This document shows positions 864 through 9,041 of a stretch of DNA of 9,227 nt, piece after piece (positions within the stretch are counted from its first letter, which is position 1; every line of letters starts with the position of its first letter). The DNA lies in assembly GCA_900551515.1 (NCBI GenBank), contig URWH01000065.1, positions 1 to 9,227 on the forward strand. Reading direction: 5' to 3'. The stretch comes from an uncultured Porphyromonadaceae bacterium. Lineage in GTDB: Bacteria; Bacteroidota; Bacteroidia; Bacteroidales; Muribaculaceae. The notes beneath the pieces are model-generated. The model did not search any database. It was not told where the DNA came from and was given only the letters and a program-made list of their open reading frames with translations. The translations under genes were made by a program, and so were the position numbers.

Positions 864-2031
864 AATATCTGCCATCATAGAGGAAAACGCCCGCCGCCGC
901 GAGCTGCTCGAGGTGGCGCCGCCCGATCCGCTGCTCGGCGACCCCGGTGCGTCATGGCGCCGTCGCGCGATGGTGTCGTGGAGCGGGGCGCCGCTCTACA
1001 TACCCGCCGAGATGACCGAAGCGCGGGGCTACAGCCCGGAGCTCGACCGCCTGTCGTTTGAGCGTATGCGCGTGCGCTACGATTTTGAATTCTGGTGCGC
1101 CCGCTGCGTCAGGATCCGCGACAAGCTCTCGGGGCAGCGCATACCGTTTGTGCTCAACGGCCCGCAGCGCCGCGTGGCCGCCATGCTCGAAGCCGACCGG
1201 CGCGAGGGCCGGCCGCTGCGCCTCATCATGCTCAAAGCCCGCCAGTGGGGTGGCTCGACTTTGATACAGATGTATTTCGCTTGGATACAGCTCACGCGCC
1301 GGCGCAGCTGGAACTCGCTGATATGCGCGCAGGTGAAGGACACGGCGGGGGTGATACGCGGCATGTACGACGACATGCTCGCCGACTATCCCGAGGAGCT
1401 GTGGGACGCCGACGACGGCGACCCGCGGTTCACGCCGTGGAAGCGCTCGCAGAACACGCGCGCCGTAGCCGGACGCGACTGTCGCGTGACCGTATGCTCG
1501 AGCTTCGGGCAGGACGCCACGCGCGGTTTCGACATATCCATGGCCCACCTGAGCGAGGTGGCTTTCTGGAACGAGACCGACCGCATGAAGCCGGGCGACT
1601 TCATACGCAGCGTCACCGGCGGCATTCCGCGCGAGGCCGACACGGTGATAGCCATGGAGTCGACGGCCAACGGCGTGGGCAACTATTTCCACCGCCAGTG
1701 GCTCTCGGCCGAAGGGGGCAAGAGCGCCTACCGCCCGGTGTTCGTGCCGTGGTATGAGATCGAGATCTACCGCGAGGAGTGCCCCGACAAGGAGGCGTTC
1801 ATCAGCTCGTGGACCAACTATGAGCAGGAGCTGTGGGAGCGCGGCCTCACCATCGAGATGATATGGTGGTACCGCGGCAAGCTGTCGGAATTTCAGACCG
1901 AGACGCAGATGCATGCCGAGTTCCCGTCGACGCCTACCGAAGCTTTCGAAAACACGGGGCATGCCGTGTTCGCCCCGTCCGACATCGACAACCTGCGGGC
2001 CGGATGCCGCGAGCCGACCGAAGCCGCCTGA
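850..2031 (+). CDS. Phage terminase large subunit, ATPase part (393 aa)
   Basis: This is the motor half of a phage DNA-packaging terminase, which uses ATP to pump DNA into a procapsid. Visible motifs are an adenine-contact motif LNGPQRR (residues 102-108, Q106), the deviant Walker A typical of TerL proteins, LKARQWGGST (128-137), a Walker B-like strand MAHLSEVAFW (231-240) whose probable catalytic carboxylate is E236, and the coupling motif ESTANG (270-275). A basic N-terminal region precedes the ATPase core. The frame ends at AGCREPTEAA-stop, right where the linker to the nuclease domain should continue. The missing nuclease is encoded immediately downstream in the -1 frame. The start ATG lies inside the end of the preceding gene and has no Shine-Dalgarno sequence, which is normal in Bacteroidota. 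A complete TerL is usually a single chain of roughly 500-650 residues, so this is either one half of a two-chain enzyme or the 5' part of a frameshifted gene. Confidence 0.88.
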   Translation: MTSSEISAIIEENARRRELLEVAPPDPLLGDPGASWRRRAMVSWSGAPLYIPAEMTEARGYSPELDRLSFERMRVRYDFEFWCARCVRIRDKLSGQRIPFVLNGPQRRVAAMLEADRREGRPLRLIMLKARQWGGSTLIQMYFAWIQLTRRRSWNSLICAQVKDTAGVIRGMYDDMLADYPEELWDADDGDPRFTPWKRSQNTRAVAGRDCRVTVCSSFGQDATRGFDISMAHLSEVAFWNETDRMKPGDFIRSVTGGIPREADTVIAMESTANGVGNYFHRQWLSAEGGKSAYRPVFVPWYEIEIYREECPDKEAFISSWTNYEQELWERGLTIEMIWWYRGKLSEFQTETQMHAEFPSTPTEAFENTGHAVFAPSDIDNLRAGCREPTEAA

Positions 2032-2049
2032 CGGTCGAGACACGTCCGA
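2029..2049 (+). other. Frame junction within the terminase gene
   Basis: The ATPase frame stops at TGA (2029-2031) and the nuclease frame runs through the same bases one position back. Adding one C to the CC just before the TGA (gccgcc-tga becoming gccgcc-ctg) would join the frames as EAA-LTVETRP without any stop. One lost base in a C run therefore explains the split most simply. I see no classic X-XXY-YYZ slippery heptamer or evident stem-loop that would argue for programmed -1 frameshifting. A sequencing or assembly error is equally compatible. Confidence 0.55.
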
Positions 2050-2771
2050 TGCTCGACACACCCTCGCCCGACGGCGAGCTCAAGGTGTGGGCGCTGCCCG
2101 ACAGGACCACGCGCTCGCCCCGCAACCGCTATGTGATAGCCGTCGACGTGGGCGGCCGCTCCTATCATTCCGACTATTCGGTGGTGACGGTGTTCGACCG
2201 TCTGCCCGGCGGCGCCTGCTCGTCGCGCGAGGCCGTGCCGGAGCCTGTGGCCCAGTGGCGCGGCCATTGCGATCACGACCTGCTGGCTGCCTACGCCGCG
2301 CGCATGGGGCGCATCTACGGCGACGCCCTGCTGGCCGTGGAGAGCAACACGCTCGAATCGGCCGCCGAAGGCGCCTCGCAGTATATCCTCGAGGAGCTGC
2401 GCGCCGGTTACCGCAACCTCTACGTGCGCATGCCCAAGGACACCACCTACGACCCCTCGCCCCTGCCGCGCGTGGGCTTCCACACCAACCGCAGTACCAA
2501 ATCGCTGATCATCACCGGCCTGATTGCCGCCGTGCGCGACGGCCGCTACCGCGAACTCGACAGCGGCACGTGCAACGAGCTGGCCACCTACGAGCTACGC
2601 GAAAACGGCTCCTACGCCGCACGCCCGGGATTTCACGACGACCTGCTGATGACTCGCGCCATCGGCCTATACATCATCAGCGGCCTGCCGCACATCACCA
2701 TCATGTCGGAAGATGAACTGACAGCCGCCCGGACGCGACGCCGCGAAGGGGCCATACGCAATATATATTAA
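2049..2771 (+). CDS. Phage terminase large subunit, RNase H-like nuclease part (240 aa)
   Basis: This is the nuclease half of the terminase, which cuts concatemeric phage DNA at the start and end of packaging. Counting from the ATG at 2049, the three acidic motifs of the RNase H-like fold are present in order: YVIAVDVGG (D33), LLAVESN (E98) and GFHDDLLM (D197/D198). The segment VGFHTNRSTKSLII (142-155) is also typical of TerL nucleases. The start is uncertain. An ATG at 2004 in the same frame would add 15 residues and overlap the ATPase frame by 28 bases, and the frame stays open back to an ATG at 1833, but that part is only a shadow of the ATPase gene. The conserved segment GELKVWALPD near the N-terminus suggests that the linker is largely intact. 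The active site looks complete, so decay is not advanced. It could be a separately translated subunit, a product of frameshifting, or the 3' part of a broken gene. Confidence 0.8.
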   Translation: MLDTPSPDGELKVWALPDRTTRSPRNRYVIAVDVGGRSYHSDYSVVTVFDRLPGGACSSREAVPEPVAQWRGHCDHDLLAAYAARMGRIYGDALLAVESNTLESAAEGASQYILEELRAGYRNLYVRMPKDTTYDPSPLPRVGFHTNRSTKSLIITGLIAAVRDGRYRELDSGTCNELATYELRENGSYAARPGFHDDLLMTRAIGLYIISGLPHITIMSEDELTAARTRRREGAIRNIY

Positions 2772-2849: not shown

Positions 2850-4259
2850 ATGAACCGCACTTTTCTCAGACATATCCACCTTACGGTAATCCTCGCCGTC
2901 ATGCTCACCGCCTTCGCGGCATGCATCGAGGACTCCATATCGACTTCGCCCGCCGACCAGCCGGAATTCAGCACCGACACGCTGCGTTTCGGCACACAAT
3001 ATTCCGACGAGGTGACGCCCACCATGATGCTCATGGTCTACAACCGCCACGATAAGGTGATGTCCATTTCCGACATATCCATCGAAGGCGACGACGGCGT
3101 GTTCCGCCTCAACGTCGACGGTTTCTCGGGCACCCGCTTCTCGGGCGTGGAGATCCGTCCCAACGACTCTATCTACGTGCTCGTGTCGGCGCGCTTCCCC
3201 ACCAACGGCGATTTTGAGCCGGCACGCGTCGACCGCACCCTTACGTTCACCACCAACGGCGTCACCCGCAAGGTGGTGCTCACGGCCGAATCGCAGGACG
3301 TGGAGCGCCTCACCGACCCGGTGATCACCGCCGACACGCGCTGGCGTCCCACCCATCCGCGCCGCATCTACGGCCGTCTGACGGTGGCCCCGGGCGCCAC
3401 ACTCACCCTCGAAGCCGGCACCACACTCCTCTTCCACGACAAAGCGTCGGTGGAGGTGGAGGGACGGCTGGTGTGCCTCGGCACTGCCGAACAGCCCGTG
3501 GTGATGCGCGGCGACAGGCTCGGCAGCGTGGTCGGCGACATCTCCTTCGACCTCATGGCAAGCCAGTGGCATGGTGTAAGACTGACACCGCAGTCGGCCG
3601 GCAACGAGCTTAGCTTCACCGAGATACGCAACACCGTGAGCGGCCTCACCGCCGACACTACCGACCTGGCGCTCGTCAACTGCCGCCTCCGCAACTCGGC
3701 CGGCCGCGTGCTCACCTCCAATCACAGCACCTTGCGCGCCGTAGGCTCGGAGTTTGCCGAAGCCGCCGAAGGCGCCGTGCTCCTCTGCGGCGGCTCGGCC
3801 GAGATGGTCAACTGCACATTCTCCAACTATTATCTCTTCGCAGCCATCACCGGCGCGCTGCTGCAGGTTGACCACACCGACGCCGACCACACCGACGGCT
3901 CGACACTCCCCTACCTCTCGGCACGCATCGTCAACTCGATACTCTACGGCTCGTCGGGCGAGATGAACCGCAGCGACCTCACCGGCACCGATGTCTACGT
4001 CACCTCATGCCTGATGCGCAGCAAAGGCACCGACGACGACCATTTCATCCGCTGCCTGTGGGACACCGACCCGCTGTTCTACACCGTGCGTTCGGAATAT
4101 CTCTTCGACTATCGCCTGCAGCCCGACTCGCCCGCCATCGGCGCCTCGCAGCCCTGCGACACTCAGCTGCCCGCAACCGATTTCTACGGCACGCCTCATC
4201 CCTCGCCCGCCTCGCTGGGCGCCTATGAGCCGCGCCCCGACGGCGAGGAGAATCCCTGA
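2850..4259 (+). CDS. Parallel beta-helix lipoprotein (469 aa)
   Basis: This is a predicted secreted lipoprotein. Residues 1-24 form a signal peptide with a hydrophobic core (LTVILAVMLTAF) and a lipobox FAAC, so C25 would be the lipidated first residue. The following IED fits acidic export signals that send Bacteroidota lipoproteins to the cell surface, though it is a weak match. Residues about 38-150 look like an Ig-like beta-sandwich (TLRFGTQY, TLTFTTNGVTRKVVLTA). From about 165 the chain shows the regular rungs of a right-handed parallel beta-helix: GRLTVAPGATLTLEAGTTLLF, VEVEGRLVCLGT, QWHGVRLTP, ELSFTEIRNT, LALVNCRL, AEMVNCTFSN and ARIVNSILYG. It ends with YRLQPDSPAIGA and LGAYEP, common at the end of such proteins. 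No catalytic residues of a polysaccharide lyase can be assigned, so a binding or structural surface role is as likely as an enzyme. A tandem DHTDA/DHTDG pair lies at residues 341-350. It is followed after 51 bases by the kinase gene. Confidence 0.85.
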   Translation: MNRTFLRHIHLTVILAVMLTAFAACIEDSISTSPADQPEFSTDTLRFGTQYSDEVTPTMMLMVYNRHDKVMSISDISIEGDDGVFRLNVDGFSGTRFSGVEIRPNDSIYVLVSARFPTNGDFEPARVDRTLTFTTNGVTRKVVLTAESQDVERLTDPVITADTRWRPTHPRRIYGRLTVAPGATLTLEAGTTLLFHDKASVEVEGRLVCLGTAEQPVVMRGDRLGSVVGDISFDLMASQWHGVRLTPQSAGNELSFTEIRNTVSGLTADTTDLALVNCRLRNSAGRVLTSNHSTLRAVGSEFAEAAEGAVLLCGGSAEMVNCTFSNYYLFAAITGALLQVDHTDADHTDGSTLPYLSARIVNSILYGSSGEMNRSDLTGTDVYVTSCLMRSKGTDDDHFIRCLWDTDPLFYTVRSEYLFDYRLQPDSPAIGASQPCDTQLPATDFYGTPHPSPASLGAYEPRPDGEENP

Positions 4260-4310: not shown

Positions 4311-5399
4311 ATGAAAGATCTCCAGTCGATCACATCGCAATTCGCCACCGAAGGCACCATCACCGAAATACGCCCGCTGGGCAACGGCCTCATCAACGAC
4401 ACTTATCGCTGCAACACCGCCGATGCCGACACTCCCGACTATGTGCTCCAGCACATCAACCACCACATATTCACCGACGTCGACGCCCTCCAGCGCAACA
4501 TCATGGCCGTCACACGCCACATCCGCCGCAAGCTCACCGAAGCCGGGGCCGACGACATCGACCGCCGCGTGCTCTCTTTCATACCCCTGCGCTCCGACGC
4601 CGACCGCACCTACTACTTCGACGGCGCTGACTACTGGCGCATGATGCGCTTCATCCCCGAGGCCGACACCTTCGAGGCCGTCACCCCCGACTCGTCGCGC
4701 TCGGCCGGCGAAGCTTTCGGCCGGTTCCAGGCCATGCTCGTCGACATCCCCGACACGCTCACCGAGACCATCCCCGACTTCCACAATATGGAGTTCCGCC
4801 TGCAGCAGCTGCGCGAAGCCCTCGACGCCGACGCCGCCGGTCGCCTCGACAGCGTGCGCGACATAGCCGACGACCTCCTGCGCCGCGCCGACACCATGTG
4901 CCGCGCCGAGCAGCTCCACCGTCAGGGCATCCTGCCAAAACGCATCTGCCACTGCGACACGAAAGTCAACAACATGATGTTCGACCGTCAGGGACGCGTA
5001 CTCTGCGTAATCGACCTCGACACCGTCATGCCCTCCTATATCTTCAGCGACTACGGCGACTTCCTCCGCACCGGCGCCAACACCGTGGCCGAGGACTGCC
5101 CCGACCTCGACAAAGTGAGCTTCCGCATGGACATCTTCCGCGCATTCACCGAAGGCTATCTCCGCTCGGCAGGTCAGTTCCTCACCGACGTGGAAATCGA
5201 CAACCTCCCCTATGCCGCCGCCCTCTTCCCCTACATGCAGGCCGTGCGCTTCTTCGCCGACTACATCAACGGCGACACATATTATAAAATATCCTACCCC
5301 GAACACAACCTCGTGCGCACACGCAACCAGATACGTCTGCTCGAAAGCGTCGAAGCCCACACGCCCGAGATGACCGAATTCATCAACTCACTCCGCTAA
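4311..5399 (+). CDS. APH-fold sugar kinase, N-acetylhexosamine 1-kinase-like (362 aa)
   Basis: This is a cytoplasmic phosphotransferase of the aminoglycoside phosphotransferase/choline kinase fold. It has an N-lobe with the nucleotide loop LGNGLINDTY (23-32) and the family segment YVLQHINHHIFTD (44-56), then a catalytic loop ICHCDTKVNN (212-221) giving the HxDxxxxN pattern with H214, catalytic D216 and N221. The metal-binding motif VIDLDTVMP (233-241, D235 and D237) follows, and then SDYGDFLRTG. These motifs match bifidobacterial NahK-type kinases, which phosphorylate GlcNAc/GalNAc at C1 during mucin and host-glycan use. The same family in Bacteroidales is often labelled after the mucin-desulfation operon gene mdsC. 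An antibiotic-resistance role is unlikely from this motif set. The length is normal, and nothing is missing. The next gene starts 11 bases after its stop, so the two are probably co-transcribed. The family is sure; the sugar substrate is inferred. Confidence 0.87.
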   Translation: MKDLQSITSQFATEGTITEIRPLGNGLINDTYRCNTADADTPDYVLQHINHHIFTDVDALQRNIMAVTRHIRRKLTEAGADDIDRRVLSFIPLRSDADRTYYFDGADYWRMMRFIPEADTFEAVTPDSSRSAGEAFGRFQAMLVDIPDTLTETIPDFHNMEFRLQQLREALDADAAGRLDSVRDIADDLLRRADTMCRAEQLHRQGILPKRICHCDTKVNNMMFDRQGRVLCVIDLDTVMPSYIFSDYGDFLRTGANTVAEDCPDLDKVSFRMDIFRAFTEGYLRSAGQFLTDVEIDNLPYAAALFPYMQAVRFFADYINGDTYYKISYPEHNLVRTRNQIRLLESVEAHTPEMTEFINSLR

Positions 5400-5410: not shown

Positions 5411-6079
5411 ATGAAAGCTCCACACACCCTTCTCATTGCTATGCTCGCTCTGTGCTGCATAGCCTGCGGCAACAAGACACGCGACGACCGAGACGAATAC
5501 GACGACACAGAGGAATACCTCGCCGATACCGACATCGACTTATATCTCGTGGCCGGCGATGAAGCCCGGCAGGTGATCGCTGCACTTGCAACCACATATC
5601 CGCAACTCTCGGAGATGATCTTGCCGAATAACGCTTCATCATTCAGTGCTACGGTAAAAAAGAAATACATCCCGACCGTCGACTCCCTGCTCAACACGCC
5701 GGCGGCCGCGCAGATAATCGGCAATGACCTGAAAGCGGCCTGGTGCCGCAATTCCATCAATGGCGACGTCGGCTCGGACCTCTATCTCATTCACACTCCG
5801 GCCATATTCAGGCCCTCCGGCCCAGTTCATGTCAGCTTCAAAGAGGCCGACAATTACGATCCCTATGAGGCGATCGACGTACGGTTAGTCGACGAAGATG
5901 CCCGGACATGGGCCACGGTGACACGCAACAACATCGGCCGCCAGCTGGCCATTATGATCGGCGGCGAGATAATTTCCGCCCCGGTTGTACAGTCGGAAAT
6001 CCTCGGCGGACACATCTCCATCACCGGCTACGGAATCCGAAATCTCTTCGAAAAGATGACCTCCAAAAAGCCAGACTGA
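5411..6079 (+). CDS. Lipoprotein with a free-standing SecD P1-head-like domain (222 aa)
   Basis: Residues 1-18 form a lipoprotein signal (TLLIAMLALCCIAC) with a lipobox CIAC and lipidated C19, followed by an acidic linker (RDDRDEYDDTEE, 24-35). The rest resembles the periplasmic P1 head region of SecD. By hand alignment, residues 161-206 match SecDF residues 366-412, encoded next door, at 23 of 46 positions (shared EDA, RxW, NNIG, SAP, VQ, GG, ITG). An upstream block IPTVDSLL...NDLKAAW (87-111) matches MRTIDSLI...QDLKFAW (290-313). No membrane helices of SecDF are present, so it cannot translocate protein itself. It sits 11 bases after the kinase gene and 121 bases before secDF, which has its own promoter. 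A role as an envelope partner, substrate holder or regulator of SecDF is inference. It could also be an old partial duplication with an unrelated job. The fold assignment is good, the function unknown. Confidence 0.85.
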   Translation: MKAPHTLLIAMLALCCIACGNKTRDDRDEYDDTEEYLADTDIDLYLVAGDEARQVIAALATTYPQLSEMILPNNASSFSATVKKKYIPTVDSLLNTPAAAQIIGNDLKAAWCRNSINGDVGSDLYLIHTPAIFRPSGPVHVSFKEADNYDPYEAIDVRLVDEDARTWATVTRNNIGRQLAIMIGGEIISAPVVQSEILGGHISITGYGIRNLFEKMTSKKPD

Positions 6080-6200
6080 AAGCCGAACTGACGAAAAATG
6101 CGGAAACTATTGGCTTTAATCCAAAAGAAAATTGTATATTTGCAGGCTGAAACCGTGAAATTTAAAATTTAATAACTCAAATATCACCCATTAACTCACA
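6080..6200 (+). promoter_or_regulatory. Promoter and AT-rich leader of secDF
   Basis: The element TATATTTG at 6135-6142 matches the Bacteroidota -7 consensus TAnnTTTG exactly. TTGG at 6110-6113 is a fair match to the -33 element TTTG, with a 21-base spacer, inside the known 19-21 range. Transcription should start a few bases downstream of 6142, leaving a leader of roughly 50 bases that is rich in A and T (gaaatttaaaatttaataac). There is no Shine-Dalgarno sequence before the ATG at 6201; AT-rich leaders are normal in this phylum. The promoter means that secDF can be expressed separately from the kinase and lipoprotein upstream, although no terminator blocks read-through. Confidence 0.7.
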
Positions 6201-9041
6201 ATGCAAAAAGGAAAATTAGGAAGCATTGTCGCCGGCGTTTTGGCTATCTTCTTGATTGTCATCTGCCTTTTCTATCTCTCGTTTACCTTCGTGGCAAACC
6301 ATCATGAGAAACTGGCCGATGAATACGCAGCAGCCAAAGTGCAAGACAAAAACACTTCCGATTACATGAAGGTCCGCAAGGATTACTTCGACGGCATCGC
6401 CAACAAACCCGTGTGGTTGGGCTACACCTACAAGCAGGTGCAGAAACTCAGCATCGGCCTCGGCCTCGACCTCAAGGGCGGCATGAACGTTACGCTTCAG
6501 CTCTCCGTGCCCGATATTCTCAAATCGATGGCCGGAAGCAACGCCAACTCCACACTCGACAAAGTAATCACGACCACCGACTCAATTGTAAAAAGCAAAC
6601 ACGAAACCGACTTCATCAGCGAATTCGTTAAGCAGAGTCAGGCCGTCAGCCCGAAACTCGATCTCGCAGTGATGTTCCGCGATCAGATTAAGGCAGGCGC
6701 TTCACAGTCGGAAATTGAAAACACACTCCGTCAGGAAATCAAAGACCGCGTCAGCAGCTCGGCCAACGTGCTCCGTCAGCGCATCGACCAGTTCGGCGTC
6801 GTCGCTCCTAATATCCAGGAACTCGAAAATCAGGGCCAGATCCTCCTCGAGCTTCCGGGCGTCACCGACCACGAACGCATGGAAGAGCTCCTCAAGGCTT
6901 CGGCAAACCTCGAATTCTATATCGAAAAACCGGTCAACGACTATTACCGCACTCTCCAGCAGCTCGATCAGCAGCTGAAAAAAGAGGGCGACAGCAAAGG
7001 ATTCTTCAACCACTTCACCGACGTTTATCCCTCGGGCATGGTTGTGGGACGCGCAACAGCCAAAGAGATGCGCACCATCGACTCGCTCATCCAGGTGGCT
7101 CAGAACGACGGCATGTTCCAGGATCTCAAATTCGCCTGGGGCGTGAAACCCGAAGCTACCAAAGGCGGCGACGTCTATGAGCTCTATTCGATGAAGACCG
7201 ACGGCGGCGAAGCCGTGCTCAGCGGCGACGTTGTCAAAGACGCCACAATGGACTTCGACAAACAGGCCGGCGGCACATTCGTGAGAATGACAATGAACGA
7301 AGACGCCGCACGCAGCTGGTCCAGCATCACCGGCAACAACATCGGCAAACGCGTGGCCATCGTCCTTGACAACCGCGTTTACTCCGCTCCTACCGTTCAG
7401 ACTCAGATCTCCGGCGGCGTGTCGCAGATCACCGGCCAGTTCACCCCCGACGAAGGCAAAGACTTGGCCAACGTGCTCAAATCCGGCAAAATGGCCGGCA
7501 GCATCGACATCATCAGCTCCACGAAGATCGGTCCTTCACTCGGTGAACAGGCCATCCACGACGGCCTCTGGTCGTTTGTATTCGCACTCATCCTCCTGAT
7601 GATCTTCATGTGCGCATTCTACGGCATCATCCCCGGCCTCATCGCCAACCTCGGATTGATCTTCAACATCTTCTTCACCTTCGGCATCCTCGCATCGTTC
7701 CAGGCCGTGCTCACACTCTCCGGTATCGCCGGTATCGTGCTCGCCCTCGGTATGGCCGTCGACGCCAACGTGCTCATCTTCGAGCGCACCAAAGAAGAAC
7801 TCCGCGCCGGCAAGAACCTGCGCAACGCCATAGCCGACGGCTACAGCAACGCATTCTCCGCCATCTTCGACTCCAACCTCACTTCGGTGATCACAGGCAT
7901 CATCCTGCTGATGTTCGGTACAGGCCCCATCAAAGGCTTCGCCACCACACTTATCATCGGCATCGTCTGCTCATTCTTCACGGCAGTCTATCTGACACGC
8001 CTCGTGTTCATCGCTTTCGACAAGACAAAACCCTTCAAGAAACTCACATTCAGCACCCCGCTGTCGAGCAAGATGTTCACCAACGCTCACATCAACTTCC
8101 TCGGCAAGCGCAAAGCTGTGTTCGGCATCATCCTCGCTGTCATCCTCCTGTTCGTCGGCTCGCTCTTCTATCGCGGCCTCAACCAGGGCATCGACTTCTC
8201 TGGTGGCCGCAACTACGTGATCCAGTTCGACAAAGCTCAGGACCTCAACCAGGTGCGTGACGTACTCGCCAAAGAGTTCGAAGGCAACAAACCCACCGTC
8301 ATCAACATCGACGATCCCACAAAGATCCGTGTTTCGACCAACTATATGATCGACAACAAGACCGTCAACGTCGACAGCATCATCACAGCCAAGATGTACA
8401 ACGCCCTCGTGCCCGACAAATCGAAGATGACCATCGATCAGTTCCAGGCATCCGACGAAGACCACGGCATCATCAGCTCGCAGAAAGTAGGCCCGACAGT
8501 GGCCAACGACATGCGCACCAACGCTTATATCGCCGTCGGCCTCTCGCTCCTCGCCATGTTCTTCTACATCCTGCTCCGCTTCCGCAACATCGCCTTCTCC
8601 GTCGGCGCTCTTGCAGCCGTAGCATTCACCGCATTCTCCATCATCGGCTTCTACTCCATATTCTGGGGCATGCTGCCCTTCGCAATGGAGATCGACCAGA
8701 CGTTCATCGCCGCCATCCTTACCGTGATCGGTTATCAGATCAACGATACGGTGGTTGTGTTCGACCGTGTGCGTGAAAACGTCGGCCTCTATCCCAAGCA
8801 GAACTTCTTCACCACCATCAACGAGTCGATCAACTCCACACTCGGCCGTACGGTGATGACATCAGCATCGACACTCCTCGTGCTCCTCTGCATCTTCGTC
8901 CTCGGCGGCGACGCCATCCGATCATTCACATTCGCCATGATCTTCGGTGTGATTGTCGGTACACTCGCCACCATGTTCATCGCAGCACCTGTCGCCTACG
9001 AAACCGACAAGCGCCGCAACAAAACCAACAAGCTCGCCTAA
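6201..9041 (+). CDS. secDF: Fused protein translocase subunit SecDF (946 aa)
   Basis: SecDF is an inner-membrane subunit that uses the ion gradient to pull exported proteins out of the SecYEG channel into the periplasm. The fusion of SecD and SecF into one chain is the usual form in Bacteroidota. Segments in order: TM1 (about 8-32); the SecD signature GLGLDLKGG (86-94); a long periplasmic P1 region to about 450, including a helical stretch at 105-190 and the head at about 285-430 (NNIG, SAPTVQ, ISGG, ITG); and TM2-TM6 (about 456-606) with the ion-relay motif GMAVDANVLIFER, D521. The SecF half starts at TM7 (about 638-657), followed by GIDFSGG (663-669), P4, and TM8-TM12 (about 774-930). This half contains INDTVVVFDR with D849 and GRTVMTS with R883, matching the functional Asp and Arg known from Thermus SecDF. 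All key residues are present and the reading frame is intact. The start at the ATG at 6201 is set by the promoter and by the position of TM1. Confidence 0.98.
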   Translation: MQKGKLGSIVAGVLAIFLIVICLFYLSFTFVANHHEKLADEYAAAKVQDKNTSDYMKVRKDYFDGIANKPVWLGYTYKQVQKLSIGLGLDLKGGMNVTLQLSVPDILKSMAGSNANSTLDKVITTTDSIVKSKHETDFISEFVKQSQAVSPKLDLAVMFRDQIKAGASQSEIENTLRQEIKDRVSSSANVLRQRIDQFGVVAPNIQELENQGQILLELPGVTDHERMEELLKASANLEFYIEKPVNDYYRTLQQLDQQLKKEGDSKGFFNHFTDVYPSGMVVGRATAKEMRTIDSLIQVAQNDGMFQDLKFAWGVKPEATKGGDVYELYSMKTDGGEAVLSGDVVKDATMDFDKQAGGTFVRMTMNEDAARSWSSITGNNIGKRVAIVLDNRVYSAPTVQTQISGGVSQITGQFTPDEGKDLANVLKSGKMAGSIDIISSTKIGPSLGEQAIHDGLWSFVFALILLMIFMCAFYGIIPGLIANLGLIFNIFFTFGILASFQAVLTLSGIAGIVLALGMAVDANVLIFERTKEELRAGKNLRNAIADGYSNAFSAIFDSNLTSVITGIILLMFGTGPIKGFATTLIIGIVCSFFTAVYLTRLVFIAFDKTKPFKKLTFSTPLSSKMFTNAHINFLGKRKAVFGIILAVILLFVGSLFYRGLNQGIDFSGGRNYVIQFDKAQDLNQVRDVLAKEFEGNKPTVINIDDPTKIRVSTNYMIDNKTVNVDSIITAKMYNALVPDKSKMTIDQFQASDEDHGIISSQKVGPTVANDMRTNAYIAVGLSLLAMFFYILLRFRNIAFSVGALAAVAFTAFSIIGFYSIFWGMLPFAMEIDQTFIAAILTVIGYQINDTVVVFDRVRENVGLYPKQNFFTTINESINSTLGRTVMTSASTLLVLLCIFVLGGDAIRSFTFAMIFGVIVGTLATMFIAAPVAYETDKRRNKTNKLA

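Follow-up and report, generated by a model that had tools for sequence, protein, structure and literature searches.

The window analysed here is a 9,227-nucleotide stretch of contig URWH01000065.1 from an uncultured Porphyromonadaceae bacterium. Its ATG-initiated open reading frame at 5411..6079 (+ strand) encodes a 222-residue putative lipoprotein that, as supported by sequence comparison and structure modelling, consists of the SecD P1 head subdomain alone, without any membrane part, on an acidic tether. The resemblance to SecD was confirmed to be far beyond chance, and the membrane-free SecD head proposed for this frame in an earlier note was borne out by family profiles, BLASTP and the structure model.

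A membrane-free SecD P1 head

In a Pfam scan, the protein matched PF22599 (SecDF_P1_head) alone (E 1.5e-13, 51.0 bits against a cut-off of 27), over profile positions 37-93 of 114, and its three close relatives (P0001-P0003) scored 50.8-52.2 bits on the same profile. The core block, residues 150-206 (5858..6028, + strand), carries the motif NNIG..AI....SAPVVQ.EI.GG..ITG, and all eight residues that are invariant across SecDF heads are retained. Positions 296-454 of the SecDF profile NF009585 align with residues 54-206 (E 4.9e-15). BLASTP against the SecDF protein of the same window, whose own P1 head lies at residues 337-431 (7209-7493, + strand; PF22599), gave an E-value of 8e-12 with 48 of 130 positions identical (37%); this alignment takes in a VDSL..DLKAAW block and then a C-terminal block, in the same order as in SecDF. 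A sequence search of the PDB led to Thermus SecDF (3aqo, E 5.9e-6). Since the profile, BLASTP and PDB matches agree, the two SecDF-like blocks noted earlier are real and ordered.

The comparison of a structure prediction with SecDF P1, which had been suggested as a check, gave a consistent picture. In the model, residues 41-217 (5531..6061, + strand) make up one folded domain with a P1-head fold that matches the head in solved SecDF structures and superposes on residues 112-246 of 3aqo_B. The protein shares fold, order of elements and core motif with the Thermus SecDF P1 head (3aqo, 3aqp, 5yhf; PF22599), but it lacks the P1 base and the membrane segments, no SecF half was found in it, and a putative lipid tether, read by eye, stands in their place. 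Indeed, no match to PF21760 (the N-terminal part of the P1 base), PF02355 or PF07549 was obtained at E up to 0.1, and the scores on full-length profiles fell well below those of a complete SecD or SecDF translocase (TIGR01129, 38.7 bits, cut-off 244.4; NF009585, 54.6 bits, cut-off 1037).

Membrane anchoring by a lipid would be provided by the N-terminus. A signal peptide, residues 1-18 (5411..5464, + strand), was read by eye from MKAPHTLLIAMLALCCIAC and is directly followed by the putative lipid-bearing Cys19 (5465-5467, + strand), which is unchanged in all four sequences, the window protein and P0001-P0003. The residue at -3 is Cys; in the classic lipobox this position is Leu. The acidic linker that follows, residues 20-40 (5468..5530, + strand), holds 9 D/E and 3 K/R in residues 20-39 and varies in length between the window protein and its relatives; the structure model has low confidence over residues 1-32. 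The earlier note had seen in this linker room for surface or outer-membrane sorting, a suggestion that now appears weak. The export signal of Capnocytophaga is K-(D/E)2 or Q-A-(D/E)2 at about +2 to +6, its position being critical, and that of B. fragilis is SDDDD (PMC5080379). In the window protein, positions +2 to +6 after Cys19 read GNKTR and acidic residues begin at +7, so a canonical surface signal was rejected. Surface exposure may nevertheless occur, since divergent surface signals have also been described (PMC5080379).

Relatives, whole-P1 lipoproteins and descent

A search of 5.8 billion proteins (1117 scored candidates) yielded three relatives at E <= 0.001, P0001, P0002 and P0003, which are 96%, 90% and 80% identical to the lipoprotein, respectively; because shared five-residue words were required, more distant forms could escape this search. 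Besides the difference in linker length, P0003 is without three head residues. Its 38 substitutions over residues 40-222 are confined to 40-132, which leaves 133-222 free of any; the split at 132/133 was picked after the data were seen, and this pattern could reflect recombination or a chimeric assembly. P0002 shows the opposite tendency, with 9 of 12 substitutions in 133-222, and thus no single variable face emerges. Scans of genome contigs with the lipoprotein alignment and with SecDF returned 52 and 19 pattern-matching stretches, respectively, among which no relative was confirmed, and none was confirmed in viral-contig scans with the lipoprotein, SecDF, P0095 or A5. A phage origin of the lipoprotein was rejected: a PHROG search gave no match at E up to 0.01, and the lone phage-record match, MT837209, is a bacterial block. 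The open reading frames of this record (MT837209.1, L005), deposited as 'Bacteriophage sp.', were read by eye as bacterial queA, tgt, yajC, secD and secF.

A second type of protein, in which a lipoprotein-type signal precedes a whole SecD P1 with both base and head, accounted for 22 of the 120 matches listed (396-457 aa), and one more, P0208, was placed apart in the tree. These proteins of about 400 aa (P0086, P0093-P0095, P0071, P0122-P0136, P0138, P0142 and P0208) are easily overlooked because of their names: among the 22, two are called 'SecD/SecF fusion protein' by JGI and two 'hypothetical protein' by NCBI, the rest having none. Two of the records carry the names Bacteroidetes or Bacteroidales bacterium. 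Like the window protein, they (P0123, P0124, P0134, P0071, P0086 and others) combine a SecD periplasmic domain with a lipoprotein-type signal and no membrane part. However, they hold base plus head, whereas the window protein is head only, and they show 3-4 D/E in the 20 residues after the Cys, with no acidic run, against 9 in the window protein. P0121 (505 aa) is a SecD with the first transmembrane segment and GLDLKGG that ends where P0086 and P0093-P0095 end; its last 118 residues are identical to P0093, and it is possibly a recombinant gene or a chimeric assembly.

Outside the Bacteroidota, a 179-aa 'hypothetical protein' of Tsukamurella tyrosinosolvens (NZ_LR134464.1, L004 2671-3210; PF22599, 74.8 bits) is, like the window protein, head-only with a signal and Cys read by eye. 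It differs in belonging to a plasmid of an actinomycetote, where the listed neighbours, including sulfotransferase and SDR genes, are unrelated to secD, and the match covers just 23% of the window protein. Other candidates for stand-alone heads were rejected: a Nonomuraea match lies in a 639-aa frame that reads as a full SecD, and the open frames that contain three Kitasatospora matches are 985 aa long. Four PLSDB entries with secDF (NZ_OY725917.1, OY725988.1, NZ_OY725770.1 and NC_022111.1) probably represent chromosomal fragments or a main chromosome submitted under the plasmid label. Lipid-anchored pieces of SecD P1 seem to recur.

As judged from sequence similarity, the window lipoprotein would be a diverged offshoot of a SecDF head. 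A 48-row tree built from head segments unites the four window-type proteins in a single clade (support 100/100). Two branches, one on each side of the root as drawn, with 6.27 and 3.12 changes per column, set this clade off from all other rows; SecDF of the window has a long branch as well (2.1), and the two whole-P1 rows of this tree group with P0057, a Marinilabiliales SecD (98/88). Because of the very long branch, the approximately unbiased (AU) test neither rejected nor established that the window clade groups with the SecDF encoded beside it (p 0.211), and the same holds for a grouping with the whole-P1 lipoproteins (p 0.434). In a quick tree of 103 P1 rows, in which the branch stars deserve less trust than usual and P0208 is a long row, the whole-P1 lipoproteins require three changes, or at least two by the starred branches. 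Most of them stand beside the SecDF rows P0121 and P0137 (Bacteroidales bacterium), with P0208 elsewhere, and the window SecDF lies in a different part of this tree, among rows that include Paludibacteraceae. The window SecDF is 48.9% identical to the Muribaculaceae-named record P0119 over 456 aa, other rows covering other spans. Head-only and whole-P1 forms may have separate origins, a reading and not a result given that neither AU grouping was decided.

A largely or wholly functionless remnant of a partly duplicated secDF would fit the narrow distribution, the long branch and a GC content at third codon positions of 0.69, below that of four other window genes (0.76-0.85). Nevertheless, signal, length and core are preserved in four sequences down to 80% identity, the domain boundary is clean with a signal peptide added, and similar architectures exist elsewhere, all of which makes a relic improbable.

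Proposed function and genomic setting

The leading reading, a tentative one, is that the protein works as a tethered module which holds exported chains or lets them dock, and the substrate-holder idea of the earlier note is thus a reasonable one. The lipoprotein would sit in the periplasm, on the inner or the outer membrane, where its head would bind stretches of newly exported chains, or chaperones meeting such chains, a role also ascribed to the SecD head. Lacking base and membrane parts, it would act without a proton-driven stroke and could hold chains or dock chaperones, not pull, serving as a passive site that receives chains from SecDF. PpiD and YfgM have folds different from that of the P1 head. 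As tethered partners of SecD they offer a functional analogy, being likewise membrane-anchored periplasmic factors near the Sec exit, according to PMC7793623 and PMC11470409. The same papers describe a substrate-binding cavity in the SecD P1 head and its position near PpiD, and AlphaFold contacts between SurA and the SecD head are given in PMC9987972.

Several observations weigh against this reading. The lineage is narrow, with three close relatives, and the head stands on a very long branch, so its binding properties may have changed. Chain binding by the SecD head itself is unsettled, since PMC7793623 records no VemP-SecD crosslink and PMC11470409 terms model steps 3 and 4 (VemP motif, head binding) highly speculative. 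Furthermore, the lipoprotein gene is probably co-transcribed with, and an operon partner of, an upstream kinase gene and not secDF, and in all four of the other Bacteroidales secDF records searched with PF22599 over their whole length (Prevotella sp. OT299, Phocaeicola massiliensis, Bacteroides finegoldii and Parabacteroides distasonis) the one match was SecDF itself, in open frames of 1001-1008 aa. This comparison is a small test, since three of the records are 39-91 kb. The genes upstream of secDF there are an M3 metallopeptidase gene, an endonuclease/exonuclease/phosphatase gene or DUF4468 genes, identified from the annotation for two records and by eye for the other two.

The kinase gene, which encodes an APH-type phosphotransferase of 362 aa (4311..5399, + strand; PF01636, 80 bits), ends 11 bp before the lipoprotein start, and 121 bp of 32% GC separate the lipoprotein gene from secDF (6201..9041, + strand; 946 aa; NF009585, 1130.8 bits, cut-off 1037; Pfam matches). 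This gap holds a candidate secDF promoter at 6110..6142 (+ strand), with TTGG at 6110-6113, a 21-nt spacer and TATATTTG at 6135-6142. The latter is the sole exact TAnnTTTG (Bacteroides-type -7) box on both strands of the window and is only suggestive, because a mean of 1.21 per window is expected by chance; the -33 part, read by eye, has one mismatch to TTTG. The TAnnTTTG/TTTG consensus is quoted in PMC7366714, where it is also noted that a second member of this phylum had yielded no -33 motif. Taken together, gap, box and kinase spacing suggest that secDF probably has its own transcription start and that the lipoprotein gene is transcribed with the kinase. Of the position beside secDF claimed earlier, adjacency at 121 bp holds, but the kinase gene is closer and a promoter-type box lies between. 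A general neighbourhood link to secDF is unsupported in view of this box, the kinase abutment and the four records without a second P1-head gene; the putative link is local and weaker than earlier claimed.

The operon-like spacing favours a role unrelated to Sec, in which the head was repurposed, for instance as a binding lipoprotein of the surface or outer membrane whose operon also encodes the kinase and a beta-helix-like lipoprotein. The strongly acidic stretch after the Cys, the very long branch and the P0003 substitutions, which are as expected of an exposed, variable region or of a recombinant allele, point the same way. However, the P0002 substitutions lean oppositely, the acidic run lies outside the Capnocytophaga signal position, and the invariant SecDF-head residues persist, leaving this role rather unlikely, if worth considering.

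Adjacency to secDF and a fold the same as that of the SecD head would suit a competitor or regulator that occupies SecD-head partners (PpiD/SurA-type chaperones, SecYEG) and reduces or diverts the activity of SecDF, as would the SecD-head contacts described in PMC7793623 and PMC9987972. This is unlikely, given the separate candidate promoter for secDF and the lack of a wider genomic link in the four records. Far less probable is control of secDF by the protein as a secretion monitor or arrest peptide, in the manner of VemP and similar upstream frames. An exported protein is indeed encoded just 5' of secDF, and Bacteroidota possess secDF upstream frames with NAP-stop ends, as reported in PMC10987492. 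Nonetheless, the arrest peptides treated there (VemP, Apd, uDF_NAP-stop) are short exported frames with a C-terminal RAPP-like or NAP-stop motif, and the survey targeted short frames without annotated function, whereas the lipoprotein is a folded 222-aa domain ending in SKKPD, neither NAP nor RAPP-like. With the promoter-like box also lying 3' of its gene, this explanation was disfavoured.

Further upstream, 2850-4259 (+ strand) encodes a protein of 469 aa whose start resembles that of a lipoprotein and which gave weak PF13229 beta-helix and choice-of-anchor Q matches, both under cut-off; its gene possibly opens an operon that also contains the genes for the kinase and the P1-head lipoprotein. 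Two overlapping frames at 850-2031 and 1833-2771 (+ strand) each match one part of the large subunit of a phage terminase (phrog_2 and phrog_24361/phrog_38407), with chromosomal-type genes nearby, and may represent a prophage edge or remnant.

Possible significance for protein export in Bacteroidota

No description of a stand-alone or lipid-anchored SecD P1 head was found in searches of the open literature, subscription journals being mostly outside that scope, and the whole-P1 SecD lipoproteins among the 120 matches listed are new here. Gripping of chains that leave the translocon is the presumed action of the SecD head and has been hard to separate from the proton motor, and Bacteroidota produce very many lipoproteins and outer-membrane proteins. 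A bolder and doubtful proposal is that Bacteroidota repeatedly detached the polypeptide-gripping SecD periplasmic domain onto a lipid anchor, as a motor-free station receiving exported chains, perhaps at the outer membrane, with the head-only protein of this window and the whole-P1 proteins of other Bacteroidales as two versions of an undescribed export factor. Such natural lipoproteins would be motor-free versions of the SecD head, which could reveal directly what this head binds and could also show whether Bacteroidota use an extra handling step after SecDF.
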